15,331 nucleotides of DNA, taken from Clostridia bacterium (GTDB lineage Bacteria; Bacillota_A; Clostridia; Oscillospirales; CAG-272). Shown one piece after another: positions 1,961-15,331 of this stretch. Positions within the stretch are counted from its first letter, which is position 1. Every line of letters starts with the position of its first letter. The notes below the pieces were generated by a model. That model was not told the origin of the DNA. It did no database searches and saw only the letters and a list, made by a program, of their open reading frames with translations. Position numbers and translations under genes: made by a program. The stretch is taken from positions 1 through 15,331 of the forward strand of contig JAGBRZ010000232.1 in the NCBI GenBank assembly GCA_017632155.1, given 5' to 3'.

Positions 1961-2030
1961 TTAATCGTCAATGATATGTTTAAAACATCATCATTTTCAA
2001 TCATAACAGAAACGGCAGGGAATGTGTTTT

Positions 2031-3479: not shown

Positions 3480-3501
3480 ATCAAAAACCGCAAGAATATT
3501 T

Positions 3502-3528: not shown

Positions 3529-3567
3529 GAATTCACCCCAAAATCAACCTCATAATTCAAAATATTT

Positions 3568-3594
3568 TTAGCACTCTCCGCGCGAGAGTGCTAA
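3568..3594 (+). promoter_or_regulatory. CIRCE element (HrcA operator) upstream of hsp20
   Basis: TTAGCACTC, nine bases, GAGTGCTAA: a perfect match to the CIRCE inverted repeat bound by the heat-shock repressor HrcA. It lies 140 bases before the hsp20 start codon and predicts HrcA repression relieved by heat. I could not identify convincing -35 and -10 hexamers around it. In this phylum CIRCE usually controls groESL and dnaK, so use on hsp20 places this chaperone in the same regulon. Confidence 0.95.
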
Positions 3595-3600
3595 TGTTTT

Positions 3601-3614
3601 CTGTTTAGAAACAG
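3601..3614. other. Short perfect palindrome in the hsp20 upstream region
   Basis: CTGTTT, two bases, AAACAG, starting seven bases after the CIRCE element. The two-base centre is too tight for a stable RNA loop, so a protein-binding site is more likely than a hairpin. No known regulator recognised. Confidence 0.35.
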
Positions 3615-3733
3615 ATTTGTCATTAATAGTTCACATATCAGGTGTATCATAATAGTGTCAAAAACAGGCGCCGAAAGACACAAAATAACACAAAAAATTT
3701 ACTCGATATAGAACCTAAAAGGAGGATTCTGTT

Positions 3734-4159: not shown

Positions 4160-4187
4160 GTTTTAGTTGTTAAACGATAGTTGCAGT

Positions 4188-4235
4188 TGAAGGCTGAGCT
4201 CCGCCCAAGCGGGTGGAGCTCAGCCTTCATTTTTT
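4188..4235 (+). terminator. Strong intrinsic terminator after hsp20
   Basis: Perfect 15-base arms TGAAGGCTGAGCTCC and GGAGCTCAGCCTTCA, with further pairing inside, followed by six T. It ends hsp20. Confidence 0.92.
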
Positions 4236-4317
4236 CTTTTGTCAAAATAACCAACCATTGCCCACTCTTTTCCTCAAAAGATTGTCGCATATTTTATGAC
4301 AAAAAACTCCAAAAGTC

Positions 4318-4346
4318 TTGATTATCCCACCTATTTATGATATAAT
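4318..4346 (+). promoter_or_regulatory. Sigma-A promoter for the antiporter
   Basis: TTGATT, 17 bases, TATAAT. The predicted start near 4353 gives a leader of about 40 nucleotides, too short for a riboswitch. Confidence 0.8.
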
Positions 4347-4391
4347 ATGGACTTGTGAAATTCAAAAACATAAAGAAAGAAGATAATCAAA

Positions 4392-5681
4392 ATGACATCA
4401 ACCATTTTTATCACGCTGTCTATCGCACTCCTTTCGGGTCTTCTTCTCTCGCGTGTTGCGAAGAAGGTCGGACTCCCGGCGGTAACCGCATATCTCGTTG
4501 CGGGCGTTCTCATCGGTCCCTATCTCCTCGGTCAGTTCGGCATCGGCTTTGACCACGAGGCAAACTCCCCCGAAAAGTACAAGATCCTTTGCGATCTTGC
4601 GCTCGGATTCATCGCATTCGCGATCGGTAACGAATTCCGCCTTGAGCAGCTCAAAAAGATCGGTAAGCAGGCGACCATCGTCGGTATCGGTCAGGCGATC
4701 GTCACCACCATTGTCGTTGACGCAGGACTTATTGGCCTTTCCTTCATCCTTCCCGAGGGATGCCTTCCCATTCCCGCGGCAATCATCCTTGGCGCAGTTG
4801 CAACCGCAACAGCTCCCGCGGCAACCCTTATGGTCGTTCGTCAGTACAAGGCGAAGGGTCCCGTAACCGACATTCTCCTTCCCGTTGTTGCTCTTGACGA
4901 TGCAGTCGGACTTGTCATCTTTGCGATCTCCTTCGGCGTTGCGGGTGCTATCAACACCGGCACCATCGACCCCATCTCCATGATCGTTAACCCCCTCATT
5001 GAGGTCGTTCTCTCGCTCATTCTCGGCGCAGTTATGGGCTGGCTTTTCTCCTTCACCGAGAGATTCTTCTTCTCCCGTTCGAAGCGTATGGCAGTTTCGG
5101 TTACCTTCGTAATGCTCACCGTTGCGATCTCCTCTCTCAAATTTGAGGTTGGTCATTTCCACATCGCATTCTCGAGCCTTCTTGCTTGCATGATGCTCGG
5201 AACCGTATTCTGCAACATCTGTGACTTCTCCGAGGAGCTTATGGAGAGAGCCGACAGATGGACCGCCCCCCTTCTCATCCTCTTCTTCGTTATCAGCGGC
5301 GCAGAGCTCAACCTTGGCGTTTTCACCAACTGGGTATTCGTCGTTATTGGCGTTGCTTACATTGCATTCCGCTGCATCGGTAAGTATTTCGGCGCACGCT
5401 GGAGCGCAAAGATCTCGGGCTGTGACGAAAATATCGTAAAATACCTTGGCATCACCCTCTTCCCGCAGGCGGGCGTTGCACTCGGTATGGCAGCTCAGGC
5501 TCTCACCTTCGGCGGTGACATCGGCGTGCTTGCGCAGTCGATCACCCTCTTTGCAGTACTTATTTACGAGCTTGTAGGTCCCGCACTCACCAAGATCGCA
5601 CTCACTAATGCAGGCGACATCAAGGCAGAAGGCAAGACCAATGCACGTGAGGAAGCAAAGAAAGCGATGGCACAGAAATAA
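4392..5681 (+). CDS. Kef/CPA2-type cation:proton antiporter, membrane domain only
   Basis: A 429-residue integral membrane protein with about 12 hydrophobic segments, beginning at the first residues (TIFITLSIALLSGLLLS). It belongs to the Na+/H+ exchanger (CPA2) family that trades Na+ or K+ for protons. Residues 137-145 (T-A-T-A-P-A-A-T-L region) match the unwound-helix motif. D169-D170 in the next helix (V-A-L-D-D-A-V-G-L) match the double-aspartate ion-binding motif typical of electrogenic members. There is no C-terminal TrkA-N/RCK domain as in KefB/KefC; the tail is a 30-residue charged segment ending KKAMAQK. The ribosome binding site is weak (AAAGAAAGAAG). Neighbouring stress genes fit a role in pH or Na+ homeostasis. 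Ion selectivity cannot be told from sequence. Confidence 0.85.
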   Translation: MTSTIFITLSIALLSGLLLSRVAKKVGLPAVTAYLVAGVLIGPYLLGQFGIGFDHEANSPEKYKILCDLALGFIAFAIGNEFRLEQLKKIGKQATIVGIGQAIVTTIVVDAGLIGLSFILPEGCLPIPAAIILGAVATATAPAATLMVVRQYKAKGPVTDILLPVVALDDAVGLVIFAISFGVAGAINTGTIDPISMIVNPLIEVVLSLILGAVMGWLFSFTERFFFSRSKRMAVSVTFVMLTVAISSLKFEVGHFHIAFSSLLACMMLGTVFCNICDFSEELMERADRWTAPLLILFFVISGAELNLGVFTNWVFVVIGVAYIAFRCIGKYFGARWSAKISGCDENIVKYLGITLFPQAGVALGMAAQALTFGGDIGVLAQSITLFAVLIYELVGPALTKIALTNAGDIKAEGKTNAREEAKKAMAQK

Positions 5682-5704
5682 GTTACTAGTTGCTAGTTAA
5701 AGGT

Positions 5705-5735
5705 AAAAATCCCGCCCGAAATGGGCGGGATTTTT
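5705..5735. terminator. Bidirectional terminator between the antiporter and the sigma array
   Basis: AAAAATCCCGCCC, five bases, GGGCGGGATTTTT. The stem is GC-rich with A/T tracts on both sides, so it can stop the antiporter transcript on plus and the converging anti-sigma 1 transcript on minus. Confidence 0.9.
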
Positions 5736-5785
5736 CGATTTTATCAAAACAAAAAACAACAGTAGCGAGAAAGTTTTTGAGAATT

Positions 5786-5951
5786 CTTAAGGAACTTTTT
5801 TCAAAAAGTTCCTTAAGTCGCCGTCCGCAGACGGCGAAACTCTTCCTTGTGCTTCGGAATGGCGGCGCCCCGCCGACATTCCGGAAGGAGTAAAATCTTC
5901 CCTTCGGGGAAGATTTTCGCTCCTTCACCCCGCGCGCCCGCAGGCGCGCGG
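5786..5951. repeat. Cluster of five consecutive palindromes
   Basis: Five adjacent inverted repeats fill most of the 291-base gap between two convergent genes. (1) 5786-5817: CTTAAGGAACTTTTT, two bases, then its perfect complement. (2) 5818-5837: TCGCCGTC/GACGGCGA with loop CGCA. (3) 5856-5882: GGAATG-g-CGGCG/CGCCG-a-CATTCC. (4) 5884-5926: GAAGGAG plus AAAATCTTCCC, closed by a TTCG loop. (5) 5930-5951: CCGCGCGCC/GGCGCGCGG with loop CGCA. None has a clear U-tract for the minus-strand gene. It looks like a composite, MITE-like intergenic repeat, but no coding or transposase remnant is visible. Confidence 0.75.
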
Positions 5952-5972
5952 CTTTTCTTTGCACTAAATGCG

Positions 5973-7187
5973 TCAATCAATAAGATTTCCGCGTGAGTCG
6001 AACTTTAACTCAACAACTCCGTCCGAGCAGGTTACTTGAGTCAGCGAGGTATCTCTTATCCAGTCACCCCAATTCTTGCTCATAGTCGTCCACTGTTTTA
6101 CGGTACCTGCAAACTTAAATTCCGTCAGAACAGGGTTATCTCCGAACGGCACAAACAGTGTTTTAATGGTCGATGGAAGAGATACACTTACAAGCTCATC
6201 GTTTTCCAAAAAAGCGCTGTTCATAATTCTGATAACGCCCTCCGGGATAACGACTTTTGTCAAACCGGGCTTGTTGAAAAACGCAACGGATCCGATAATC
6301 TCAACGCTTCCGTCATCGGGAATGACGCTGTTTGCAAATCCGCAAAGGAGAACTTTATCCTTGATGCGGATAAGACAGTTGCCCTTCTCGGTGTAAAACT
6401 TGTTTTCAGGCGAAACCGTGATGCGCGAGAAGTTGCGTCCGCGGTCACCGTTGTAATAAACACTTCCGTCTATTTCGGTTACACCAGCACCGATATGAAG
6501 ACTTTCGAGATTTGTGCACTGGTCGATAACCTGCGCTTTGACATACTCAATACTGTCCGGAATTATGATGTGTCTGATAGCCGGATAACTGAAATCGTCG
6601 GCAGTAATCGTGGCTTCCTTGTAATCAGGATTAGTAAGACGAATCTCCTCGATTCTCTTTTGCTGTTCGATCTGTTCAATAAAAATTATCTTTGTAACCG
6701 GAAGACCTTCGTAAACCGAGCCGATATAGGCGGTTTCATCAGTGCAAGTACCCCAACCTATGAAGGATGCACTCTTGCCATCCTCATTTATCATATAGAG
6801 CAAGCCCTCACTTCCGTGCTCATCGGGCACAAATTCGGTCTCTTCGGGTTCTGTGACGGGCGGCTCGGTTTGGGCGAGTGCCTCTGTGGCTTCGGGTTTC
6901 GGCTCGGTCTCCTCAACTCCGGGATTAGCACCCGCGCCGAAGCCGCCGAACGGGTTCGTGTTCTTCGACACAAAGCTTATGACGGGGATGATCGCGCCGA
7001 GAAGCAGCGCGCAAGCAGCCAAAACTGCGATCTGTTTTACCCAGATAACATGCCTTTTGCCCTTCGACGGCATTCCCGCCGTGACCGCGTCGGTCCTGAC
7101 GCGTGACATGGTATCCGAGATCATCGCGTCGTCGATATACTCGATCGACTCAAGCAGACGTCTTTTTTGATTCATATTAAGGCTCAT
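5973..7187 (-). CDS. Anti-sigma-like membrane protein 1 with BspA-type LRR ectodomain
   Basis: 404 residues, starting at the ATG that overlaps the sigma 1 stop (ATGA), ten bases after GGAGGG. A longer in-frame start at 7313 lies inside the sigma gene and is not used. The cytoplasmic part (1-47) has the motif L-L-E-S-I-E-Y-I-D-D-A-M-I-S, shared with the three paralogs downstream of other sigma genes and inferred to contact sigma. One TM helix spans about 48-73, preceded by basic residues (inside-positive). A Pro/Glu/Thr-rich stalk (90-122) leads to an ectodomain opening G-S-E-G-L-L-Y-M-I-N-E-D-G-K. It carries LRR_5 strands such as V-V-I-P-E-G-V-I-R-I and V-S-L-P-S-T-I-K-T-L, and ends near C-S-D-G-V-V-E-L. 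No classical zinc anti-sigma domain is present. Sensing an extracellular ligand or cell-wall state is inference. Confidence 0.8.
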   Translation of the reverse strand: MSLNMNQKRRLLESIEYIDDAMISDTMSRVRTDAVTAGMPSKGKRHVIWVKQIAVLAACALLLGAIIPVISFVSKNTNPFGGFGAGANPGVEETEPKPEATEALAQTEPPVTEPEETEFVPDEHGSEGLLYMINEDGKSASFIGWGTCTDETAYIGSVYEGLPVTKIIFIEQIEQQKRIEEIRLTNPDYKEATITADDFSYPAIRHIIIPDSIEYVKAQVIDQCTNLESLHIGAGVTEIDGSVYYNGDRGRNFSRITVSPENKFYTEKGNCLIRIKDKVLLCGFANSVIPDDGSVEIIGSVAFFNKPGLTKVVIPEGVIRIMNSAFLENDELVSVSLPSTIKTLFVPFGDNPVLTEFKFAGTVKQWTTMSKNWGDWIRDTSLTQVTCSDGVVELKFDSRGNLID

Positions 7188-7741
7188 TTTGTAATACCCT
7201 CCTTTTTGAGTTCCGCGGCTATCTTCTTCCGCGTTCTGTGAAGCGATACCTTTATCTTGCTCTCGCCGTAGCCCGTCTGCGCCGCGATCTGTGCGAGGCT
7301 GAGCCCAAGCCAATAGCGCAAAATAAAGATATCCTTGTTTGTTCTTCCGACGGTTGCAAGCACGGAATTTATGATCTCACCGGCGCGCCGTGCCTCAAAT
7401 CCCGAGGCGAGATCGGTTCCGTCTTCAACCATATCGAGGAATTCCTCCCCGACTATCGCAATTTTTCCGCCGCGTTTCCAGGCGTTTTCGTTCCTTGAGA
7501 TCTCGCGGGCACGGTTGCGCACCATTTTGCAGATATAGGCACGAAGATCGCGTGGATTTTCGGGCGGAACAGCGTTCCAAAGCGCGAGTATGACGTCGCT
7601 GACGCATTCCTCGGCATCCTCACGGAAGGTGAGAATGCTCAGAGCGATATAATGGCAAAGAGGACCGTATTTCTTCTCGACCTCCGCCAAAGCCTGCTCA
7701 TCCCGCGCAAAGAACAATTCGATAATTTTTTCATCTTTCAT
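7184..7741 (-). CDS. ECF RNA polymerase sigma factor 1
   Basis: 185 residues. Region 2 covers roughly 10-85, with the DNA-melting/-10 helix around E-E-C-V-S-D-V-I-L-A-L-W-N-A. Region 4 is about 120-180, with a helix-turn-helix near L-S-L-A-Q-I-A-A-Q-T-G-Y-G-E-S-K-I-K-V-S-L. Between them is a linker with R-G-G-K-I-x-I-V-G-E-E-F-L and D-G-T-D-L-A, conserved in all four paralogs here. I start it at 7741 (MKDEKIIELF), seven bases after AAAGGAG. A start 12 codons upstream lacks a ribosome binding site and breaks alignment with the paralogs. Its stop overlaps the next gene by four bases, so the membrane partner is translationally coupled. Confidence 0.92.
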   Translation of the reverse strand: MKDEKIIELFFARDEQALAEVEKKYGPLCHYIALSILTFREDAEECVSDVILALWNAVPPENPRDLRAYICKMVRNRAREISRNENAWKRGGKIAIVGEEFLDMVEDGTDLASGFEARRAGEIINSVLATVGRTNKDIFILRYWLGLSLAQIAAQTGYGESKIKVSLHRTRKKIAAELKKEGITK

Positions 7742-7797
7742 TTGAGCGCTCCTTTCGATTGTCCTTTCATTAAACAAGAAGCAATCTATTAAAAAAG

Positions 7798-7803
7798 GTT
7801 ACA
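7798..7803 (-). promoter_or_regulatory. TGTAAC box before sigma 1 (candidate ECF -35)
   Basis: TGTAAC followed by CTTTTTT, 56 bases before the start codon. A related box (TGTTAC or CGTTAC) sits 46-64 bases before each other sigma start. TGTAAC-like hexamers are typical ECF -35 elements, so autoregulation is plausible. The matching -10 is not clear. Confidence 0.4.
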
Positions 7804-7825
7804 CCATATAGCAAAGTTTTTTGAA

Positions 7826-7866
7826 TTTTGTCGGATTGCACAAACCAAGAGGGTATAATTTGTGCA
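7826..7866 (-). promoter_or_regulatory. Conserved leader element of the sigma 1 operon
   Basis: In minus-strand sense: TGCACAAA, 14 bases with a pyrimidine-rich core (ACCCTCTT), TTTGTGCA, 3 bases, CGACAAAA. The inverted repeat is perfect over eight pairs and begins 13 bases after the -10 hexamer, so it lies at the very 5' end of the transcript. The same geometry occurs before sigma 2 and sigma 3. It could be an RNA hairpin or a protein operator. Confidence 0.7.
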
Positions 7867-7879
7867 TCTTGACTTGTTT

Positions 7880-7908
7880 ATTGTATCATATTTTTCATCA
7901 TAAATCAA
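7880..7908 (-). promoter_or_regulatory. Sigma-A-type promoter of the sigma 1 operon
   Basis: TTGATT, 17 bases, TACAAT in minus-strand sense, start near 7873. The -10 context TATGaTACAAT is shared with sigma 2 and sigma 3. Confidence 0.7.
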
Positions 7909-7930
7909 TATATCCGTACTTAAATAAATC

Positions 7931-7956
7931 AGCCGAGCACGGGGTGCGCTCGGCTT
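7931..7956 (-). terminator. Terminator-like hairpin after anti-sigma 2
   Basis: AGCCGAGC and GCTCGGCT arms, A/T-rich on both sides. On minus it is followed by GATTTATTT; on plus by six T, where there is no gene to end. It is closely related to the hairpin ending anti-sigma 3 at 10147-10174. Confidence 0.6.
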
Positions 7957-7973
7957 TTTTGCATTACATTCTG

Positions 7974-9239
7974 TTATGGGGTTGGTGCGCCAACGTGAAC
8001 CTCGGGCGGGCGGGTGGTTTCTCTGTACTGTCGTTCGGGCATAAACTCACCGCGCCGCTCTTTCCAGTACATTTCAAATTCGGGCAGGAGCATCCACTGA
8101 TATTGGCTCTGATTTCCCGCATTCGAAAGCGATTCTCCGTCGGTGCAGATAACGGGGATCGATAACGGATGATTTGAATTCGATGGCTTTGCCACAGCTT
8201 CCCACTCTGCCACAGTGCCTTTATAATACAGTTTCGGGCAATACATATTGTGGAAAACCATCTGATTGAAAGCCTTCAAATTTGTGCCAAGCTCAAGAGT
8301 TTTCAGCGATTGGCAAAAGTTGAATGCAGATAACTCAATAACCTCCAGGCTGTCGGGAAGAGTGACACTTTCAAGATCCATGCAACCTTTGAATGCACCG
8401 TGATCTATGACCTTAACCCCCTCGGGAATTACTATCGAGGTAATAGACTTAGCGGATGCAAATGCCATCCAACCGATTATCTCAACACTTCCGTCATCGG
8501 GAATAACGGTAGTCGGGGTTGCAACAACAAGAGTTTTTGTTCTCAAATCAACAATACAGTTGCCCTTATCCGAGAAATTAGGGTTATTGGGAGATACCTC
8601 TACCTTGGAAAAGTTTTGTCCGTAACCTCCATTGAATGGGAGTTCGTGTATGCGCGCTACGCTTGCGCCGTAATATACGCTTTCAATATTCGGGCATTGA
8701 CGGATGCATTCAAAATCAACGATCTGCACGGTATCCGAGATGACCAATCTTTTGACGTATTTGCTGTTGAAACCGTGATCTGCGGGAATATAATCTGCTT
8801 CCCAATACGCCACGTTGTGCATTTCGGTCACGGGCATTCCGTTATATGTCGATGCGATATACACAACCTCGTCGGTGCAGGTTCCGAAGCTGACAAAGGA
8901 CACGGTCTTACCGTCCTCGTTGACCTCGTAAATAAGGCCCTTGCTTCCGTCATGCTCGGGCGAGGATTCGACCTCAACGCCGCTGTTCTCCGCGCCGACG
9001 GTGGGCGGGGTGTATTCTCCGTGCTCGATCACTATTGTCGCTGTGGGAACTGCCACGGCAAGGAGCACAAGGCACGCCGCGACTGCGACGGCTATTTTTA
9101 TACCTCGGTTCATTTTGGCAAAACGGTTTTGGGTGACACTCTTTTTCGCCTCGTATTTTTCGAGGACTTCCGAGATCAGGTCATCATCAAGATGCCCGGA
9201 TGCCTCGAAAATGAGTTTATCATTCCTATTCTTACTCAT
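7974..9239 (-). CDS. Anti-sigma-like membrane protein 2 with LRR ectodomain and odd tail
   Basis: 421 residues. The start ATG overlaps the sigma 2 stop by four bases. The cytoplasmic segment (1-46) has I-F-E-A-S-G-H-L-D-D-D-L-I-S, the variant of the shared motif with His-Leu in place of Tyr-Ile. The TM helix (about 48-71, K-I-A-V-A-V-A-A-C-L-V-L-L) and juxtamembrane stretch are identical at DNA level to anti-sigma 3. The ectodomain opens G-S-K-G-L-I-Y-E-V-N-E-D-G-K and has LRR_5 units such as I-V-I-P-E-G-V-K-V-I-D-H-G-A-F-K-G-C and V-T-L-P-D-S-L-E-V-I. After the family end point C-T-D-G (365-368) an extra 53-residue hydrophilic tail continues, absent from the paralogs. Its codons include a GTTGG/CCAAC inverted repeat at 7981-7994. 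The tail looks like read-through into former intergenic DNA. Confidence 0.8.
   Translation of the reverse strand: MSKNRNDKLIFEASGHLDDDLISEVLEKYEAKKSVTQNRFAKMNRGIKIAVAVAACLVLLAVAVPTATIVIEHGEYTPPTVGAENSGVEVESSPEHDGSKGLIYEVNEDGKTVSFVSFGTCTDEVVYIASTYNGMPVTEMHNVAYWEADYIPADHGFNSKYVKRLVISDTVQIVDFECIRQCPNIESVYYGASVARIHELPFNGGYGQNFSKVEVSPNNPNFSDKGNCIVDLRTKTLVVATPTTVIPDDGSVEIIGWMAFASAKSITSIVIPEGVKVIDHGAFKGCMDLESVTLPDSLEVIELSAFNFCQSLKTLELGTNLKAFNQMVFHNMYCPKLYYKGTVAEWEAVAKPSNSNHPLSIPVICTDGESLSNAGNQSQYQWMLLPEFEMYWKERRGEFMPERQYRETTRPPEVHVGAPTP
8980..9095 (-). repeat. 116-bp block identical to 11186-11301 (copy A)
   Basis: Base-for-base identical to the matching part of anti-sigma 3 by direct reading, while sequence on both sides diverges. 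It encodes the TM helix and about 17 residues after it. Confidence 0.9.
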
Positions 9240-9790
9240 AACGTAAATCCTTCCTTTCTTAGTTCTTCTTCAAGTTTTTTCTTTGTGCGTGCAAGTGACA
9301 TTTTGACTTTGCCGAGAGTAAATCCCGTTTTTTTCGCTATTGCCTCGTGCCTCATTCCGAGAAAATAACGCATAACGAAGAGCTCTCTTTGTTCCTCCTC
9401 GATCCTCCGAAGAAAATCGCTGATCAGCTTGCCCATTCGCTTCGCCTCGAATTCGGATAAAAGGTCGGTGCCGTCATCAACGAAGAAGAGGCACTCGTCG
9501 CCGACGATCTTTACCTCGCCGCGGCCACGGGCGTTCGAGTCGCGAAGTATTGCAAGCGCGCGGTTTCGCGCCGCCTTGGCAATATATGCGCGCAGATTCT
9601 CGGGAATCTCGGGAGGAATGGCGTTCCAGAGGGCGAGAAGAACGTCGTTTACGCATTCCTCGCGGTCCTCGTGGCGGGCAAGAATGTTTGAGGCAACGTG
9701 GTAACACAAGCCGCCGTATTTCTTCTCGACAGCCCGAATGGCGTTCTCGTCTCGAGCCAAGAACATTTCGATGATTTTCTTGTCGTCCAT
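9236..9790 (-). CDS. ECF RNA polymerase sigma factor 2
   Basis: 184 residues beginning MDDKKIIEMFLARDENAI. Region 2 includes D-R-E-E-C-V-N-D-V-L-L-A-L-W-N-A. Region 4 includes F-V-M-R-Y-F-L-G-M-R-H-E-A-I-A-K-K-T-G-F-T-L-G-K-V-K-M-S-L. The linker has R-G-E-V-K-I-V-G-D-E-C-L and D-D-G-T-D-L-L, slightly diverged from the other three (Cys for Phe, Leu for Ala). AAAGGAGG lies eight bases before the ATG, making the start secure. The stop overlaps the anti-sigma 2 start as ATGA. It should recruit RNA polymerase to its own target promoters when its membrane partner releases it. Confidence 0.92.
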   Translation of the reverse strand: MDDKKIIEMFLARDENAIRAVEKKYGGLCYHVASNILARHEDREECVNDVLLALWNAIPPEIPENLRAYIAKAARNRALAILRDSNARGRGEVKIVGDECLFFVDDGTDLLSEFEAKRMGKLISDFLRRIEEEQRELFVMRYFLGMRHEAIAKKTGFTLGKVKMSLARTKKKLEEELRKEGFTL

Positions 9791-9836
9791 GTGGATCTCC
9801 TCCTTTCACCCTATAAGAATCCAAAATTCCGAAAAA

Positions 9837-9842
9837 GTAACA
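9837..9842 (-). promoter_or_regulatory. TGTTAC box before sigma 2 (candidate ECF -35)
   Basis: TGTTAC followed by TTTTT, 46 bases before the sigma 2 start. It is similar in sequence and position to the boxes before the other three sigma genes. Confidence 0.4.
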
Positions 9843-9863
9843 AGATTCGGAAAACTTTTTCAG

Positions 9864-9905
9864 TTTTGTCGAACTGCACAAATATGGAAGGAGGGATTTG
9901 TGCAG
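9864..9905 (-). promoter_or_regulatory. Conserved leader element of the sigma 2 operon
   Basis: CTGCACAAA, 14 bases, TTTGTGCAG, then CGACAAAA in minus-strand sense, again 13 bases after the -10 if measured to TGCACAAA. The loop contains CCTCCTT, which is complementary to all seven bases of the AAGGAGG in the sigma 2 ribosome binding site. Confidence 0.7.
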
Positions 9906-9917
9906 GGTGACATAATT

Positions 9918-9946
9918 ATTGTAGCATATATTGGTGAAAAATGCAA
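9918..9946 (-). promoter_or_regulatory. Sigma-A-type promoter of the sigma 2 operon
   Basis: TTGCAT, 17 bases, TACAAT in minus-strand sense with the TATGcTACAAT context, start near 9911. Confidence 0.65.
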
Positions 9947-9970
9947 GTCTCGCGTTGCTCGAATGATGAT

Positions 9971-10132
9971 CCGCCTGCGGCGGAATGATAGTCGCGCAAA
10001 GCGCGAATGATAGTTCGCCTGCGGCGAAATGATGGTGAATTTCCGCTTTGCGGAAATTTTCCTATTAATTTCACGTTCGCCTTTGGCGAACATATCGTGC
10101 CGCATATCGTATGAGCGGAGCGAATATATCGT
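9971..10132. repeat. Array of short hairpins joined by conserved linkers
   Basis: This fills most of the 9947-10146 gap. Stems on plus: CCGCC-tgc-GGCGG (9971-9983), TCGCGC-aaa-GCGCGA (9992-10006), TTCGCC-tgc-GGCGAA (10014-10028), AATTTCCGC-ttt-GCGGAAATT (10038-10058), GTTCGCC-ttt-GGCGAAC (10075-10091). The first four are separated by ATGATA or ATGATG linkers. After the fifth come three copies of ATATCGT (10092, 10104, 10126) around decayed stems. The stems differ in sequence but keep perfect pairing and three-base loops. Not a CRISPR array, since units are 13-21 bases and palindromic. No gene is seen here. Confidence 0.75.
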
Positions 10133-10146
10133 GTTTACTAATTAAA

Positions 10147-10174
10147 AAAGCCGAGCGCGGGTGCGCTCGGCTTT
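10147..10174 (-). terminator. Intrinsic terminator of the sigma 3/anti-sigma 3 operon
   Basis: AAAGCCGAGCGC, four bases, GCGCTCGGCTTT, with six T following on the minus strand. It lies just after the anti-sigma 3 stop. Confidence 0.9.
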
Positions 10175-10179
10175 ATATT

Positions 10180-11445
10180 TTATTTGCCTGTTAATTTGAT
10201 GACTCCGTCGGTGCAGTTGACTGTGATGAGCCAGCTGTTGCTCTTCCAGTTTTCTGCCTTTTCGATGGCGTTCCATTCTGCCATCGTTCCTGCGAAATTG
10301 ATCACGGCCTCACCGTTCCTGTAAAGAAACGCGAAGGCGTATTCGTCTATCTTTTCAAGCGCCGGAGTGAGATTGATTGTCAACGAGGTACAGCCTTGAA
10401 ATGCCAAGGTATCGATATACGTGATCTTTTCACTGCCTTTGATCTCTTTCAGGGAAGAACAAGCCTGAAACATAGTTGGCGGTATTTCCGTATAACCGTT
10501 AAGATCAACACTTTCGAGATTTATACAATTATGGAAGGTGCTTCCCCATATTTTTTCAAGAGTACTCGGCAGGCGGAGATTCACAAGTCCGTAACAATAA
10601 GCAAATGCAGTCGGTTCAATTATTTTTATACCCTCCGGCAGATAATCCGCGCTGAAGTGCTCGGCATTATAGAATGCGCCCACGCTGATAGATTCAATGC
10701 TTCCGTTATCCGGAATAATCGATGTGTTGCATCCCCAAACGAGGCGTTTGTCGCGAAGATCAACAAGACAGTTTCCTTCTCCGGAATAATTTTTGTTTTC
10801 GGGAGAAACCTTGATACTAACCACCTTTGAGGGAAAAGCAGGCAACGGAACTTGAAATGCTTCAACCGATGCGCCGATATAAACACGCTCAAGATCGGGG
10901 CATTCATCGATTATCGCGCCGAGGACGCGCTTTACGGTATCCGAAATGGTTATGCTCTTGGCATATTTGCTGCCATAAGCAAAGTCGTTGTAATGATGAT
11001 CCTCATCGTAATACGGCTGATTTCTCATCTCGACGACGGGCAAGCCCTCATAATAGGACGCGATGACGATATCTTCATCCGTGCAGCTTCCGAAGCCTAC
11101 GAAGGATGCCGTCTTTCCGTCCTCGTTGACAACATATTGCAGTCCGCGGCTGCCGTCATACTGGGGCGGGAGTTCGAGTTCAACACCGCTGTTCTCCGCG
11201 CCGACGGTGGGCGGGGTGTATTCTCCGTGCTCGATCACTATTGTCGCTGTGGGAACTGCCACGGCAAGGAGCACAAGGCACGCCGCGACTGCGACGGCTA
11301 TCTTCAGCATTCTGTTTCGCCTTGCAAATTTTTCGGATATGCGGTTTGCGGGGGTAACTTTGTAATACTTCTCTGCTCTAGCGATGTATTTTTCATCGAT
11401 ATAGTCAAGAGAATCGAGAAGTCTTTCGTCTTTCGTCTTTTTCAT
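10180..11445 (-). CDS. Anti-sigma-like membrane protein 3 with BspA-type LRR ectodomain
   Basis: 421 residues starting at the ATG of the ATGA overlap with sigma 3. The cytoplasmic part has L-L-D-S-L-D-Y-I-D-E-K-Y-I-A (residues 9-22), then a basic run R-R-N-R-M-L-K before the TM helix (about 48-71). The ectodomain opens G-S-R-G-L-Q-Y-V-V-N-E-D-G-K. It has the longest LRR series of the set, with recognisable A-F-x-x-C units: P-T-A-F-A-Y-C-Y-G-L, S-T-F-H-N-C-I-N-L, T-M-F-Q-A-C-S-S-L, L-A-F-Q-G-C-T-S-L. It ends N-C-T-D-G-V-I-K-L-T-G-K, the usual C-terminal cap. The extra repeats compared with anti-sigma 1 suggest that repeat number varies between paralogs. Extracellular sensing and sigma sequestration are inferred from architecture and gene pairing. 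Confidence 0.82.
   Translation of the reverse strand: MKKTKDERLLDSLDYIDEKYIARAEKYYKVTPANRISEKFARRNRMLKIAVAVAACLVLLAVAVPTATIVIEHGEYTPPTVGAENSGVELELPPQYDGSRGLQYVVNEDGKTASFVGFGSCTDEDIVIASYYEGLPVVEMRNQPYYDEDHHYNDFAYGSKYAKSITISDTVKRVLGAIIDECPDLERVYIGASVEAFQVPLPAFPSKVVSIKVSPENKNYSGEGNCLVDLRDKRLVWGCNTSIIPDNGSIESISVGAFYNAEHFSADYLPEGIKIIEPTAFAYCYGLVNLRLPSTLEKIWGSTFHNCINLESVDLNGYTEIPPTMFQACSSLKEIKGSEKITYIDTLAFQGCTSLTINLTPALEKIDEYAFAFLYRNGEAVINFAGTMAEWNAIEKAENWKSNSWLITVNCTDGVIKLTGK
11186..11301 (-). repeat. 116-bp block identical to 8980-9095 (copy B)
   Basis: Second copy of the identical TM-coding block, offset by 2206 bases from copy A. The identity stops abruptly on both sides (an A for G at the low-coordinate edge, a C for T at the high-coordinate edge). 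Confidence 0.9.
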
Positions 11446-11999
11446 ACTATAAAACCTTCCTTTCTTAATTCGTCTTTCAGCTTCCCCTTCATCCGCGAGA
11501 GCGTCATTTTCACCTTGCCCTCGCTAAATCCCGTCAGCTTGCAGATTCGGGGATAGCTTTCGTTGAAGTAGAAGCGCATTACAAAGAGATCTCTTTCGGT
11601 TTCGGTGGAGCGCTCGAGGAAGGAGTTGATGACCTTGCCTGCGCGGCTTGCCTCGAACTCGGCGGCGAGATCGCTGCCGTCATCGAGAATGGTAAGAAAT
11701 TCCTCGCCCACTATCTGCACCTCTCCGCCGCGTTTTTGCGCCAAAGCAGCCCTTCTGCGGCTTTTGGCGAGATTGCGGACGATTCCCGAAAGATAGGCAA
11801 AAAGGCTTCGCGGCGACTCGGGCGGGATAGTGTTCCAAAGGGCGAGCAGAGCGTCATTCAAGCATTCCTCTCTGTCCTCGCGGCTTTGAAGATACGTACC
11901 CGCAAGGCGGTTGCAATGCTCGCCGTATTTCGCCTGCGTTTCGCTGATCGCGCGCTCATCGCGGATGTTGAATAATTCAATTATCTGTTCATCCTTCAT
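11442..11999 (-). CDS. ECF RNA polymerase sigma factor 3
   Basis: 185 residues starting MKDEQIIELFNIRDERAIS, seven bases after AAGGAGG. The same frame is open a further 48 codons upstream to an ATG at 12143, but that stretch lies in the leader and is not similar to the paralogs. Region 2 shows D-R-E-E-C-L-N-D-A-L-L-A-L-W-N-T. Region 4 shows F-V-M-R-F-Y-F-N-E-S-Y-P-R-I-C-K-L-T-G-F-S-E-G-K-V-K-M-T-L-S-R. The linker has R-G-G-E-V-Q-I-V-G-E-E-F-L. The helix-turn-helix differs more from the others (NESYPRICKL), so its promoter specificity may differ. Coupled to anti-sigma 3 by a four-base overlap. Confidence 0.92.
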   Translation of the reverse strand: MKDEQIIELFNIRDERAISETQAKYGEHCNRLAGTYLQSREDREECLNDALLALWNTIPPESPRSLFAYLSGIVRNLAKSRRRAALAQKRGGEVQIVGEEFLTILDDGSDLAAEFEASRAGKVINSFLERSTETERDLFVMRFYFNESYPRICKLTGFSEGKVKMTLSRMKGKLKDELRKEGFIV

Positions 12000-12063
12000 C
12001 GGTCTTCCTCCTTCCGGCGTTTCGGGGCCCTTCACTAACAAAGTTGCGGTTTCGAACCCAACC

Positions 12064-12069
12064 GTAACA
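12064..12069 (-). promoter_or_regulatory. TGTTAC box before sigma 3 (candidate ECF -35)
   Basis: TGTTAC, 64 bases before the sigma 3 start. The T-run that follows the other boxes is replaced by GGTTGGG here. Confidence 0.35.
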
Positions 12070-12101
12070 GATTTTCGAAAAATATTTTCTAAAAGACGAA
12101 T

Positions 12102-12142
12102 TTTTGTCATTTCACACAAACAGGGAAGGCTCTTTTTGTGCA
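12102..12142 (-). promoter_or_regulatory. Conserved leader element of the sigma 3 operon
   Basis: TGCACAAA, 14 bases, TTTGTGTG, 3 bases, TGACAAAA in minus-strand sense, 13 bases after the -10. The right arm differs from TTTGTGCA at two positions, but both changes give U-G or G-U pairs, so all eight RNA pairs survive. The loop contains CCTTCC, complementary to GGAAGG at the sigma 3 ribosome binding site. Confidence 0.65.
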
Positions 12143-12155
12143 CATCGACATATTA

Positions 12156-12184
12156 ATTGTAGCATATTTTTTATTACAAGTCAA
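12156..12184 (-). promoter_or_regulatory. Sigma-A-type promoter of the sigma 3 operon
   Basis: TTGACT, 17 bases, TACAAT in minus-strand sense with the TATGcTACAAT context, start near 12149. Confidence 0.7.
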
Positions 12185-12194
12185 TAAATATGAA

Positions 12195-12218
12195 AATTTC
12201 CGCCCAAGGGCGGAAATT
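12195..12218. other. Eleven-base inverted repeat between dfx and sigma 3
   Basis: AATTTCCGCCC, two bases, GGGCGGAAATT. The outer arms match the AATTTCCGC/GCGGAAATT stem at 10038-10058, so it may be a solitary member of the same hairpin family. It lies directly upstream of the sigma 3 -35 box. Confidence 0.6.
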
Positions 12219-12256
12219 CACCGAAACTCTTCACTCTCCACTTTTCACTTTACAAT

Positions 12257-12284
12257 AAAAATGACCGCCAAAGCGGTCATTTTT
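12257..12284 (-). terminator. Terminator of dfx
   Basis: AAAAATGACCGC, four bases, GCGGTCATTTTT. It begins two bases after the dfx stop in the transcript. Symmetric A/T tracts could let it work in both directions. Confidence 0.9.
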
Positions 12285-12285
12285 A

Positions 12286-12669
12286 TTAAAGCTCCTGCTT
12301 CCAGAGTCCGTGGAGATTGCAGTAAGCATAAACTGCGACGGGCTTTTCATCGGCAAGTGCGAAGACTGCCTCGGGTGCCGCGCCTACCTCAAGATGCTTG
12401 CGGTAGAGGCCCTTATCACTCTCAAGAGCTACCCAAAGGATGCTGTGCTCCTCTGCCATGGGATGCTCGACCGATCCGACCGCTACCTTGACAAGGTTGC
12501 CCTCGACCTTTGCGACGGGGATGTGCTTTTCGTGGCTTGCCTCAACTACGCCGGGGACGAGCTCGGTCATCTTCTTGCCGCAGCACATAAGCGGTACTTT
12601 CGCGTCGTGAACCTTCTCAACAAGGTTGCCGCAATGCTCACAGATATAAAACTTAACGTTGTTCTTCAT
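12286..12669 (-). CDS. dfx: Desulfoferrodoxin (superoxide reductase)
   Basis: 127 residues. The enzyme reduces superoxide to hydrogen peroxide without making oxygen, a typical defence of strict anaerobes, in the cytoplasm. The N-terminal desulforedoxin-like domain has all four iron ligands (C10, C13, C29, C30; center I). The catalytic domain has E47-K48-H49, H69, H75, C117 and H120, matching the Fe(His)4(Cys) center II and the Glu-Lys pair. It is therefore a complete two-iron enzyme of usual length. GGAGG lies nine bases before the ATG. It is monocistronic, with its own promoter and terminator, placed between two sigma/anti-sigma operons. Electrons probably come from rubredoxin, though no rubredoxin gene is in the window. 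Confidence 0.95.
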   Translation of the reverse strand: MKNNVKFYICEHCGNLVEKVHDAKVPLMCCGKKMTELVPGVVEASHEKHIPVAKVEGNLVKVAVGSVEHPMAEEHSILWVALESDKGLYRKHLEVGAAPEAVFALADEKPVAVYAYCNLHGLWKQEL

Positions 12670-12712
12670 TATTAAAATCCTCCAAATAGGTGTTTTGTTT
12701 TGTTGTGACTAT

Positions 12713-12754
12713 ATTATACCATAATTTTTCCCGAGTTTCTGTGATTTGATCACA
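12713..12754 (-). promoter_or_regulatory. dfx promoter with TGTGA-N5-TCACA operator
   Basis: In minus-strand sense there is a TATAAT at 12713-12718 with an upstream TG, but the -35 position reads CAGAAA, far from consensus. A perfect inverted repeat TGTGATxxxATCACA (12740-12754) is centred 31.5 bases upstream of the -10 centre, overlapping the -35. That is where class II activators of the CRP/FNR family bind. The same arrangement precedes trxB. Confidence 0.65.
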
Positions 12755-12782
12755 TTTCTGCTGTTTTGCGATAATAATATTT

Positions 12783-13556
12783 TTATCCGTATTTATTTAC
12801 ACTATAAAGATGCTCATAGTGTATTTCAGATAGTTCCTTTATCTCGTTTTCGTTCAGCAAACCGCTGTTATACGCTTGTGTCAATGATAAAAACTCTTTA
12901 TCTTTATACACCCATATCTCCTCCATCTGGGGCAGCGTAAACAAACATCCTGCTACAGTCATTTCACCATACCAAGTTACACTGCTATGAATGCAAAATA
13001 CTAAAATATCATCCTTTTTCATATAAACGCACACAAAGCCTTGGCACGGATAATAATACGAAAATTCTTCATAAGTTCTTGTAATATAAGCTTTATCATT
13101 ATTTCGGAACTTTTTCCAAGCCTCTGTCATTTCATCGAATTCTTCACGAGAGATCACATACTGAAAAACCGGCTCAGTATAAACCGATTCCGTTGAGAGG
13201 TTGGGCTGTTCAGTTTCAAGTGACTCGGTCGTGAAATGCTGATCGGTCTCGTCGGTATCTATTAATTCCGAGCTTATTGCTTCCGTTGACTCGCTTCCCG
13301 CGCTACCGGTGAGATTACTGATAAATACCGCAACGTAATTGAACAGCGGGAAAGCTATGGAAAGCAAGAGCAGACACGCCGCCAAAGCCAGATACTGTCG
13401 CCAATGCTTCAGTGGCGTCCTCCATGTCATTACCGGCTCGGCAACACGGTAATCGTCAGGGGTTATCTTCTTCACGGTACTTGAAATAATATCGTCATCG
13501 ATATAGTCGAGCGCTTCGAGCATTCTTTTTTTCCTCAGTTTGTTTTCGAGCTCCAT
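12783..13556 (-). CDS. Anti-sigma-like membrane protein 4 with non-LRR ectodomain
   Basis: 257 residues. The cytoplasmic motif M-L-E-A-L-D-Y-I-D-D-D-I-I-S (12-25) matches the other three partners. The TM helix is about 55-80, after K-H-W-R-Q. A Ser/Thr/Glu-rich stalk (84-128) follows. The ectodomain (129-257) has no LRR: it holds Y-V-I-S-R-E-E-F-D-E-M, a two-cysteine segment (Y-P-C-Q-G-F-V-C-V), and a C-terminal part resembling a motif common in clostridial surface proteins (W-V-Y-K-D-K-E-F-L-S-L-T-Q-A-Y-N-S-G-L-L). I do not recognise the domain by name. The ectodomain DNA looks more AT-rich than its neighbours, which could mean separate origin. The start ATG follows GGAGGG by about eight bases and overlaps the sigma 4 end by 22 bases. 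Confidence 0.75.
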   Translation of the reverse strand: MELENKLRKKRMLEALDYIDDDIISSTVKKITPDDYRVAEPVMTWRTPLKHWRQYLALAACLLLLSIAFPLFNYVAVFISNLTGSAGSESTEAISSELIDTDETDQHFTTESLETEQPNLSTESVYTEPVFQYVISREEFDEMTEAWKKFRNNDKAYITRTYEEFSYYYPCQGFVCVYMKKDDILVFCIHSSVTWYGEMTVAGCLFTLPQMEEIWVYKDKEFLSLTQAYNSGLLNENEIKELSEIHYEHLYSVNKYG

Positions 13557-14110
13557 TTTGTGAATCCCTCCTTTCTGAGTGCCTCGGCGAGCTTTTCACG
13601 GGTACGCTTGAGTGACATCTTGATCTTGCCCTCGCTGTAACCCGTTTGCTGCACGATCTGCGCGTGACTCATTCCAAGCCAATAGCGCATAACGAAAATG
13701 TCTTTATTCGCTTCTCCGACGCGTCGGAGAAGATCGCTTATGACCTTACCCATCCGTTTCGCTTCAAAATCGGATGCAAGATCGGTGCCGTCGTCAAGGG
13801 TTGACATAAATTCTTCACCCACAACTGTTACATTGCCCCCACGCTTCCACGCATTCGCGCTGCGTGAGATCTCATACGCACGGTTACGAACCGTCTTACT
13901 GAGGTAGGCGCAAAAATCCTCCGGATCCTTGGGAGGAATCGCGTTCCAAAGCGCAAGCATAACGTCGCTGACACATTCCTCAACGTCCTCGCGCGAAGCG
14001 AGAACGTTTCCGGCTATGTAACGGCATAGGGCGCCGTATTTCTTTTCGGTCTCCGAAATTGCACGTTCATCACGAGCGAAAAAAAGTTCTATTATCCTTC
14101 TATCGTCCAT
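13535..14110 (-). CDS. ECF RNA polymerase sigma factor 4
   Basis: 191 residues starting MDDRRIIELFFARDERAIS, with AAGGAGG five bases before the ATG. Region 2 shows D-V-E-E-C-V-S-D-V-M-L-A-L-W-N-A. Region 4 shows F-V-M-R-Y-W-L-G-M-S-H-A-Q-I-V-Q-Q-T-G-Y-S-E-G-K-I-K-M-S-L-K-R. The linker has R-G-G-N-V-T-V-V-G-E-E-F-M and D-D-G-T-D-L-A. It is closest by eye to sigma 1. At the 3' end, where sigma 1 has ACAAAATGA, this gene has ACAAAATGG. The stop is lost and the protein runs on six residues (WSSKTN) into the anti-sigma 4 gene. No terminator separates it from trxB upstream. Confidence 0.92.
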   Translation of the reverse strand: MDDRRIIELFFARDERAISETEKKYGALCRYIAGNVLASREDVEECVSDVMLALWNAIPPKDPEDFCAYLSKTVRNRAYEISRSANAWKRGGNVTVVGEEFMSTLDDGTDLASDFEAKRMGKVISDLLRRVGEANKDIFVMRYWLGMSHAQIVQQTGYSEGKIKMSLKRTREKLAEALRKEGFTKWSSKTN

Positions 14111-14165
14111 AGGAACCTCCTTCGTAACGTCCTTTCATATATCATAATGCATTTTATGCCAAAAA

Positions 14166-14171
14166 GTAACG
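14166..14171 (-). promoter_or_regulatory. CGTTAC box before sigma 4 (candidate ECF -35)
   Basis: CGTTAC followed by TTTTT, 55 bases before the sigma 4 start, like the boxes before the other sigma genes. Confidence 0.35.
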
Positions 14172-14193
14172 CATATTTGGGCTCAATCAGATA

Positions 14194-14257
14194 TTTTCGG
14201 CGATTTGCACATATTCAAAGAAGTCTTTTGGTCATAACTGACAAACCAAAAGACTTC
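14194..14257 (-). promoter_or_regulatory. Divergent leader of the sigma 4 operon with a 13-pair hairpin
   Basis: GAAGTCTTTTGGT, 12 bases, ACCAAAAGACTTC (14220-14257) forms a long perfect hairpin in the leader. Immediately downstream is ATGTGCA, 3 bases, CGCCGAAAA, a recognisable remnant of the TTTGTGCA-N3-CGACAAAA half seen in the other three leaders. There is only a weak U-run after the stem. It may also serve as the 3' end of trxB. Confidence 0.6.
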
Positions 14258-14280
14258 AAAACGAGTGAGCGTTATATATT

Positions 14281-14309
14281 ATTATATCATAATTTTACAT
14301 TCATTTCAA
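14281..14309 (-). promoter_or_regulatory. Sigma-A promoter of the sigma 4 operon
   Basis: TTGAAA, 17 bases, TATAAT in minus-strand sense. The -35 begins nine bases after the trxB stop. The predicted leader is about 160 nucleotides. Confidence 0.7.
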
Positions 14310-14317
14310 CAGCGTGA

Positions 14318-15223
14318 TCACAGTCCCGAAAGATATTCTTCCGCGAAATGAACCGCTACCGCGCCGTCGCCGACTGCCGTGACGACCTGGCGCAGGGGCT
14401 TCGTTCTGACGTCGCCGACTGCGTAAACGCCCGCGATGTTCGTCCTCGTCGATTCGTCGGCGATGATGTAGCCGCCGGCGTCGAGATCGAGCTGTCCGCG
14501 GAATATCTCTGACGCGGGCTTGCGGCCGATGCTGACGAAAAGACCGTTTACCTCAAGCTCTCTGCCGTCAGACAGACGGATGCCCGTCACTCTTTCGTCC
14601 GCGATGAGTTCCGAAACCGAACTGTTCGCGAGGAATTCGATATTTTCGGATTTCTCGAGGGCATCGACGTATATCTTCGACGCGCGGAAGGAGTCGCGGC
14701 GGTGGATGAGGTAGACTTTTGAGGCAAGACGCGAGAGATACAGCGCATCTTCAAGCGCCGAGTTGCCTCCGCCGACTACGGCGACGACCTTGTTCTTATA
14801 AAATCTGCCGTCGCAGTGCGCGCAGTAGTGAACACCGCGGCTGACGTATTCCTCTTCCCTCTCGATCCCAAGCTCACGCGGACCCGCACCCGTCGCGACT
14901 ACGACCGTGCGCGCGAGCCACTCTCCCGAAGAAGTTTTGACCTTTTTGATCTTTCCTTCAAGCTCGACCGAGATGACCTCGCCGTATTTCGTGACCGCAC
15001 CGAAGCGCTCCGCTCCCGCCTGCATCTTCATTCCGAGCTCCCACCCGGGGATGCCCTCATCGAAGCCCGAATAATTGTCTATCGTATCGGTGACCGCCAT
15101 CTGACCGCCCGCCGACATTCTTTCTATAACGAGAGCGTCGAGTCCCGCGCGCGCCGCATAAAGCGCCGCCGTGTACCCCGCAGGCCCGCCGCCTATAACT
15201 ATCATATCGTGTATGTGTTCCAT
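14318..15223 (-). CDS. trxB: Thioredoxin-disulfide reductase
   Basis: 301 residues, the normal length for a low-molecular-weight thioredoxin reductase. The cytoplasmic flavoenzyme passes NADPH electrons to thioredoxin. FAD site: I-G-G-G-P-A-G-Y near residues 10-17. Redox-active pair: C-A-H-C-D (commonly C-A-T-C). The NADPH domain has G-G-G-N-S-A-L-E-D and H-R-R-D-S-F-R-A, so it should use NADPH rather than ferredoxin. The C-terminal FAD motif is Y-A-V-G-D-V-R. The ribosome binding site is weak (AAGAAAGCGAGA), and the first ATG is chosen because the next (six codons later) has none. Its promoter shares an operator arrangement with dfx. Confidence 0.95.
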   Translation of the reverse strand: MEHIHDMIVIGGGPAGYTAALYAARAGLDALVIERMSAGGQMAVTDTIDNYSGFDEGIPGWELGMKMQAGAERFGAVTKYGEVISVELEGKIKKVKTSSGEWLARTVVVATGAGPRELGIEREEEYVSRGVHYCAHCDGRFYKNKVVAVVGGGNSALEDALYLSRLASKVYLIHRRDSFRASKIYVDALEKSENIEFLANSSVSELIADERVTGIRLSDGRELEVNGLFVSIGRKPASEIFRGQLDLDAGGYIIADESTRTNIAGVYAVGDVRTKPLRQVVTAVGDGAVAVHFAEEYLSGL

Positions 15224-15254
15224 TTTGATTCTCGCTTTCTTTTATTACATTTAT

Positions 15255-15296
15255 ATTATATCTCTTTTTTCGCAGTTTTTCCGTGACAACATCACA
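15255..15296 (-). promoter_or_regulatory. trxB promoter with TGTGA-N5-TCACG operator
   Basis: In minus-strand sense: TGTGATGTTGTCACG (15282-15296), 21 bases, TATAAT (15255-15260). The -35 position reads CGGAAA, close to the CAGAAA of dfx and equally poor. The operator-to-minus-10 distance, 31.5 bases centre to centre, equals that of dfx. Confidence 0.6.
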
Positions 15297-15304
15297 AAAA
15301 GCGG

Positions 15305-15325
15305 AAAAGTTTTGATCAAACTTTT
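15305..15325. repeat. Palindrome at the right edge
   Basis: AAAAGTTT, five bases, AAACTTTT, followed by T and TCAAAA. It resembles the start of an intergenic palindrome element continuing beyond the window, or a terminator for an unseen plus-strand gene. Confidence 0.4.
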
Positions 15326-15331
15326 TCAAAA

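Follow-up and report, generated by a model that had tools for sequence, protein, structure and literature searches.

Paralogous ECF sigma factors and their putative transmembrane anti-sigma partners with exchangeable ectodomains in a Clostridia bacterium

The locus described here raises the question of what ties a series of similar sigma factors to the membrane proteins encoded beside them. It lies on a 15,331-nucleotide stretch of DNA from a Clostridia bacterium (assembly GCA_017632155.1, contig JAGBRZ010000232.1, positions 1 to 15,331), hereafter the window, which carries four minus-strand operons, in each of which a gene for an extracytoplasmic function (ECF) sigma factor overlaps the gene of its partner, a single-pass membrane protein. 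Comparison with related genomes makes it highly probable that the pairs are units of transmembrane signalling, in which the cytoplasmic tail of the partner would inhibit its own sigma factor, an exchangeable ectodomain would act as the sensor, and a second regulator would be bound at a 32-bp dyad.

The operons were numbered op1 (5973-7741), op2 (7974-9790), op3 (10180-11999), and op4 (12783-14110), and all of their features given below are on the minus strand. The sigma genes of op1 (7184..7741, 185 aa), op2 (9236..9790, 184 aa), op3 (11442..11999, 185 aa, ATG at 11999), and op4 (13535..14110, 191 aa) encode proteins with pairwise identities of 49-65%. Pfam Sigma70_r2 and Sigma70_r4_2 as well as TIGR02937 score above cut-off in all four, which are ECF sigma factors by definition, being short proteins with regions 2 and 4. 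The partner genes overlap the sigma genes by 4 nt in op1, op2, and op3 and by 22 nt in op4, and encode proteins of 404 aa (op1, 5973..7187; counted from the ATG, while a 446-aa open reading frame (ORF) begins at an upstream TTG), 421 aa (op2, 7974..9239), 421 aa (op3, 10180..11445), and 257 aa (op4, 12783..13556, a putative transmembrane anti-sigma protein or receptor). Each partner has one hydrophobic helix within residues 46-79 (transmembrane (TM) helix at residues 55-73 in op1 and 46-64 in op2 and op3), and the basic N-terminal segments suggest that the N-terminus is cytoplasmic. The pairing and the single-pass topology, both proposed in an earlier note on this DNA, were thus recovered in four of four operons. 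The serial array of four that it described also contains the four operons, but op4 is set apart from op3 by a desulfoferrodoxin gene (12286-12669), which makes this an array of 1 + 3 operons.

The host belongs to uncultured ruminant-gut Clostridia near the metagenome-assembled genome (MAG) RGIG1801 (G001, goat cecum), to contigs of which the window DNA is ~84-95% identical, and further relatives came from yak, cattle, and goat colon. A total of 80 loci, the best 80 of 187 relatives, were compared. Of 175 unique sigma records, the counts use the 162 that were full-length with E<1e-50, the other 13 having been excluded beforehand. The close-clade set comprises 105 full-length sigma factors from the window and five related genomes, which are fragmentary and perhaps incomplete MAGs; one of them, G004, contributes one sigma only, on what may be a mis-binned contig. 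Sigma profile matches at E<=1e-25, fragments included, number 29 in G001, 26 in G002, 21 in G003, and 30 in G005, and the sigma expansion is genome-wide. Nine other genomes of the same genus have 0-5 copies each (at least one in seven of the nine), and the family is present in 43 of 58 other genomes sampled at family level (1-19 copies) and in 26 of 58 sampled at order level (1-9 copies). A partner gene stands beside 104 of the 105 close-clade sigma genes, which places the pairing beyond chance; 98 of these 104 partners show an ATGA-type 4-nt overlap and 103 have a TM helix. Among the distant sigma genes with enough downstream DNA, the partner was found in 53 of 53, with the 4-nt overlap in 43. 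The TM helix of the partners starts at residue 29-67 (median 44), preceded by a tail of about 30-55 residues with two predicted helices and no zinc site. The zinc-binding motif HxxxCxxC was found in the first 80 residues of none of 157 partners, the window's four included, in agreement with the earlier observation that a classical zinc anti-sigma domain is missing.

The tail and the ectodomain of the same partner often have different closest relatives. After a near-identical copy in G001, the sigma factor and tail of op4 are nearest to those of G002_L009 (86% and 66%, respectively), while the op4 ectodomain is nearest to that of G005_L107 (66%), the partner of another sigma factor; the ectodomain of G002_L009 is 61% identical to that of op1. 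Similarly, the sigma factor and tail of op2 are nearest to G003_L022 and its ectodomain to G003_L108, and those of op3 are, after G001, nearest to G003_L099, with the ectodomain nearest to G003_L022. Among 97 reciprocal-best sigma pairs from four genomes, the best match was the tail of the sigma ortholog in 79 and its ectodomain in 32. The ectodomain score was below 40 bits in 41 of these pairs, and 35 were strict swaps, defined by another ectodomain in the same genome that scores >100 bits and >2x the ortholog's score (for example, 470 vs 24 bits and 314 vs 0 bits). In ordered counts including the window, the best match lay with the ortholog for 177 of 203 tails, 93 of 204 TM parts, and 87 of 203 ectodomains. 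Because the cytoplasmic segment keeps with the sigma factor across species and the ectodomain often does not, the idea that this short segment serves the sigma factor gains indirect support.

Identical stretches of DNA between paralogs suggest where the exchange takes place. A 116-bp tract covering the TM and juxtamembrane part is identical in op2 (8980..9095) and op3 (11186..11301), an exact match of nt 144-259 of both partner genes, and is the longest exact intra-genome tract found. The identity of the two partners is 45-56% before the tract, except in the comparison segment overlapping it, and drops via 70% to about 40-60% after it. Paralogs of single genomes share, in total, 28 exact tracts of >=25 nt; the TM zone holds 15 of these, the ectodomain eight (six of them from one pair, G002_L009/G002_L002), and the sigma gene or tail five. 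The TM-zone tracts are present in three genomes and the window. Conservation of the TM protein sequence may contribute to short tracts, but exact DNA identity over 50-116 bp is not accounted for by it. On this pattern, tail and sigma factor would be a specificity pair kept together, and sensors have probably been moved among units by recombination at the conserved TM/juxtamembrane segment.

Each sigma gene of the window is preceded by a predicted ECF-type promoter. For training of the profile R1, 63 promoter sequences were reduced to 53 by omission of seven near-duplicates and three atypical sequences. With filters off, R1 gave exactly four window sites at E<=1, one ahead of each sigma gene. 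These are at 7760..7804 for op1 (27.1 bits; outside the training set, with the RGIG1801 ortholog inside), 9801..9842 for op2 (22.4 bits; outside), 12026..12069 for op3 (21.9 bits; inside), and 14129..14172 for op4 (17.9 bits, E 5.9e-5; inside), and R1, like R2 used below, matches its own training sequences by construction. In the aligned element, the -35 is of the AAC type, a T-tract is frequent, and the start region is conserved; the AAC triad and T-tract are ECF promoter features (PMC6056542). The anchor RTGARRG occurs in 77 of 105 close upstream regions and in 25 of 56 distant ones, compared with 2 and 6 in a control of one shuffle; for some anchors, the ribosome-binding site may be the same sequence (63 of the 77 lie at >=24 nt). 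Distances between sigma factors and between their promoters are correlated within four of four genomes (rho 0.41, 0.33, 0.56, and 0.54; permutation p 0 of 2000, 0.011, 0.003, and 0 of 2000).

A genome-wide R1 search of the four genomes returned 115 matches at E<=10, and 11 matches of at least 20 bits were without a downstream sigma gene; 10 of these 11 and four weaker matches were examined as 14 predicted target sites. Recurrent predicted targets are tandem anchored secreted proteins (G002, G005), lipoprotein clusters (G001, G002, G003, G005), two members of which have a sub-cut-off MG2 match, and a lipid-kinase-like gene (YegS_C 5e-24, DAGK_cat 7e-10) in G001, G002, and G003. The promoters of the secreted proteins best match the promoter of one sigma gene of the same genome, at 21 of 21 compared positions in both G002 and G005, and the sigma assignment of the other predicted targets is weaker.

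Many of these promoters are accompanied by a 32-bp dyad, TTGCACAAA-N14-TTTGTGCAA, with an inner gap of 14. At a cut-off of 4 mismatches of 18, it was found in 39 of 105 close upstream regions (about 0.3 in shuffles) and in 0 of 56 distant ones; exact copies in the four genomes number 33, of which 26 are ahead of these sigma genes. The dyad is located upstream of the promoter anchor, with its centre at 71-72, 80-82, or 92 bp in 36 of 39 cases, and the remaining three (202, 202, and 225) lie between divergent sigma pairs; 0 of 52 dyad-like matches in a weak-match control fell within those spacing ranges. At two such divergent pairs, G002:C129 and G005:C61, the common intergenic region has one dyad per sigma gene. 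Of 27 pairs of orthologs, 18 have spacings that agree to within 2 bp and nine have spacings 9 or 11 bp apart, while differences of 3-8 bp do not occur. Such steps of about one DNA turn would be expected if the dyad bound a protein obliged to face RNA polymerase. The presence of the dyad is labile, since among 107 orthologous pairs it was found on both sides in 27, on one side in 21, and on neither in 59. It also stands ahead of spo0A in four of four genomes (L225, L226, L227, L228), where its inside is more palindromic, and ahead of some of the 14 predicted target sites (at 92-93 in five, at 168 in one, and none at <=4 mismatches in eight). Because the dyad also precedes some predicted targets and spo0A, a second DNA-binding regulator probably acts at it. 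Two more dyads in G002 near contig ends (G002:C128:210-239, G002:C43:6876-6905) have nearly identical surroundings and precede a gene for a 227-aa membrane protein, away from any sigma gene.

The window dyads are at 7836..7867 for op1 (1 mismatch, spacing 81), 9874..9905 for op2 (2 mismatches, spacing 80), and 12112..12143 for op3 (3 mismatches, spacing 92 bp between dyad centre and promoter anchor). In op4, a degenerate copy at 14205..14236 has 5 of 18 mismatches, which is above the cut-off, a spacing of 82 by hand, and a partial R2 match (14192-14229, 14.1 bits). A perfect inverted repeat, AAGTCTTTTGGT...ACCAAAAGACTT, at window positions 14221-14256 upstream of op4 overlaps this degenerate dyad. 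In op1, op2, and op3, the dyad lies downstream of a sigmaA-like promoter, identified by comparison with the sigmaA consensus (TTGATT-17-TACAAT at 7880..7908, TTGCAT-17-TACAAT at 9918..9946, and TTGACT-17-TACAAT at 12156..12184, respectively). Such an arrangement would suit an RNA hairpin in a sigmaA-driven leader, for instance an anti-Shine-Dalgarno loop, rather than a DNA site, and the spacer is indeed rich in pyrimidines when read on the sigma strand, where 20 of 43 cases contain CCTCC-like words vs 2 of 43 when reversed. However, pairing of the loop with the Shine-Dalgarno sequence was no better than that of shuffled loops (25/38 vs 404/760), Rfam gave no match in the window, and the distance from the ECF promoter changes in steps of about one DNA turn, as fits a DNA-binding protein, so that a hairpin seems unlikely to us.

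The ectodomains are diverse. LRR_5, a leucine-rich repeat (LRR) family of Pfam, is above cut-off in three of the four window partners (6e-14 in op1, 3e-21 in op2, 3e-27 in op3), and no LRR_5 match was obtained by Pfam in op4; this hidden Markov model search agrees with the three BspA-like LRR ectodomains and one unrelated ectodomain previously proposed. The AlphaFold2 model of the op2 ectodomain is an LRR solenoid, mostly with a predicted local distance difference test (pLDDT) value >90, whose best Foldseek matches in the PDB are PcpA, LRR surface proteins of Eubacterium and Faecalibacterium, and TpLRR, with low TM-scores of 0.25-0.33 over the query. The op4 ectodomain was modelled with good confidence as a 120-residue alpha/beta domain, yet no fold match was found for it. 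In the close sets A3 (n=75) and A4 (n=29) and the distant set A5 (n=53 of 54, one partner cut by a contig end being omitted), LRR_5 was detected in 21, 9, and 0 partners, a beta-propeller in 8, 2, and 1, and a serpin in 1, 0, and 8, respectively. LRR is the most frequent sensor type detected by Pfam, others including beta-propeller, serpin, and alpha-2-macroglobulin-like domains, and many partners in these sets are without any Pfam match. Serpin ectodomains occur behind a like tail and TM helix beside an ECF sigma gene in L037:8555-10111:+, in seven other distant partners, and in one of the G001-G004 set; the serpin-bearing partners are possible protease sensors. A distant partner of 1816 aa (L065:4727-10174:+), also beside an ECF sigma gene, has an alpha-2-macroglobulin bait-region and a bacterial Ig-like domain.

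Surface proteins are the best-known carriers of LRR_5/BspA domains, as the PcpA and TpLRR matches illustrate, and the sigma promoter also drives the partner gene. The membrane proteins might accordingly be primarily surface adhesins or binding proteins whose expression the sigma factor merely controls, with the gene overlap reflecting operon economy rather than inhibition. This explanation is hard to sustain, because the tail keeps with the sigma factor when ectodomains change (79 vs 32 of 97) and because LRR, propeller, serpin, and other ectodomains follow one type of tail and TM helix; we therefore regard it as quite improbable, and a sensing role of the ectodomains, which the earlier note had suggested for surface contact or a ligand, as plausible and indirectly strengthened. 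The mismatches themselves might also be an artefact of fast ectodomain evolution and of orthologs mis-assigned in fragmentary MAGs, in which repeats can be mis-assembled, and reciprocal-best pairs are not proven orthologs. Neither source of error suits the 35 strict cases, in which an ectodomain of >100 bits stands beside another sigma gene of the same genome, nor the exact TM-zone tracts in three genomes and the window, and we consider such an artefact very improbable.

Under the signalling reading, a unit would work as follows. The cytoplasmic tail of the partner would keep its own ECF sigma factor inactive; the ectodomain would detect some outside signal; the signal would then free the sigma factor, most likely through stepwise proteolysis; the freed sigma factor would transcribe its own operon from the matching promoter, and the sigma factors of some paralogs may also transcribe a few envelope genes, for lipoproteins, anchored surface proteins, and the lipid-kinase-like protein; and the 32-bp dyad, helically phased with many of the ECF promoters, would be the site of a second DNA-binding protein. 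Stepwise proteolysis is proposed by parallel with sigmaV/RsiV and SigI/RsgI and because the intramembrane metalloprotease family PF02163 is present in four of four related genomes, a presence that does not by itself imply action on the partners.

Several observations weigh against this reading. The site-1 protease PrsW was found in 0 of 4 related genomes, which leaves the first cut unexplained, and models of the tail helices reach a pLDDT of only about 36-57. Of the upstream regions, 28 of 105 close and 31 of 56 distant ones had no promoter anchor, and the predicted targets are few, with none found for the window's own sigma factors. In 14 of 97 sigma pairs, another tail scores better by >10%. 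Furthermore, tail and sigma distances are correlated within four genomes (rho 0.57-0.71), but co-duplication of linked genes alone would give such a correlation; it is therefore the contrast between tail and ectodomain that counts, and within the same gene this contrast is not obtainable from co-duplication. Finally, ectodomain class broadly tracks the sigma tree (22 changes vs about 45 when shuffled), a coarse test, as single-linkage clustering put the unrelated-looking op4 domain with the LRR group; ectodomain swapping is thus frequent but not free.

The earlier note had also suggested that the family expanded by tandem duplication. For this array, recent tandem duplication is not supported: the four sigma factors are old paralogs and not each other's nearest kin, their common ancestor spanning 38 of 104 sigma factors in the tree. 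Outside G001, the nearest relatives of the op2, op3, and op4 sigma factors are at other loci. The same chromosomal site holds two operons in G005, one operon and a 770-aa ORF in G003, and op1 followed by the contig end in G002; in both the window and G001, op4 is flanked by the genes for the reductase and desulfoferrodoxin, and these two genes are adjacent in G002, G003, and G005. The array site gains and loses units. A recent local duplication without special role, to which the four adjoining paralogs and the common 7-member clade of the op2 and op4 sigma factors might point, is hardly credible given sigma identities of merely 49-65%, nearest relatives in other species and at other loci for three operons, and the differing operon sets of G005, G003, and G002. 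The flanking genes are ordinary, encoding lactate/malate dehydrogenase, HSP20, a Na+/H+ exchanger, desulfoferrodoxin, and pyridine-nucleotide reductase. A 479-aa ORF at window positions 2022-3461 had no Pfam match at E<=0.01.

The system amounts to a natural domain-swap experiment, in which dozens of sigma-tail pairs stay matched as sensors change. It would allow direct tests of how paralogous ECF systems are insulated from one another, where the inhibitor lies, and how new sensing functions spread. Should the phased dyad be an activator site, a second, global control would be imposed on ECF autoregulation, which to our knowledge would be unusual. A bolder and quite tentative view, which we think has the odds against it, is that of a recombining receptor repertoire in a free-living bacterium, in which 20-30 insulated sigma/tail lines per cell are fixed outputs whose heads are shuffled by recombination at a conserved TM segment; one dyad-binding protein, working through helically phased sites, would gate many of the autoregulatory loops and their targets as well as spo0A, so that the network switches with developmental state, and the serpin and macroglobulin-like heads of some distant relatives would take protease attack as their signal.

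The closest known systems compare as follows. A class I anti-sigma factor, zinc-binding ones included, is likewise a cytoplasmic domain of a membrane protein encoded beside an ECF sigma factor; unlike the zinc type, none of the 157 partners has HxxxCxxC, and class I domains measure 101 +/- 33 residues (PMC7406223), longer than the cytoplasmic segment of the partners with its median TM start at 44. Class II anti-sigma factors such as CnrY have an inhibitor segment of <50 aa whose two helices wrap the ECF sigma factor (PMC7406223); the tail of the partners is predicted, at low pLDDT, to form two helices. BspA-type LRR surface proteins share LRR_5 with three of the four window ectodomains, and PcpA and TpLRR are among the fold matches, but here the LRR forms the outer part of a single-pass membrane protein that has a sigma factor as its counterpart. 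In Bacillus sigmaV/RsiV (ECF30, DUF4179), too, an ECF sigma factor has a single-pass membrane inhibitor, the outer part of which serves as a direct receptor, and release proceeds via signal peptidase and the intramembrane protease RasP (PMC6066255). DUF4179 is over cut-off in 0 of 4 window partners (op3 alone gave E 0.14, 13.0 bits vs a cut-off of 30.1) and was found at E<=0.01 in 1/75, 0/29, and 3/53 partners of A3, A4, and A5.

In the open literature, as far as listings and the opening parts of abstracts go, no account was found of this ECF/anti-sigma system with LRR, serpin, or domain shuffling. The SigI/RsgI systems of cellulolytic clostridia are alike in having many paralogous pairs of sigma factor and membrane inhibitor per genome, varied ectodomains, autoregulation, and paralog-specific promoters (PMC4711584, PMC6056542). 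They reach 16 SigI paralogs in P. cellulosolvens (PMC6056542), compared with 21-30 ECF sigma factors per related genome here. SigI is without sigma region 4 (PMC4711584), which is present in all four window sigma factors; RsgI is a reported polysaccharide sensor, whereas the partners here carry LRR, propeller, serpin, and other domains by Pfam, and no RsgI domain is among their listed Pfam matches (window and sets A3-A5). Our verdict is that the window encodes an ECF sigma/transmembrane anti-sigma system that would work much like SigI/RsgI, with sensor exchange and the phased dyad as its unusual features.

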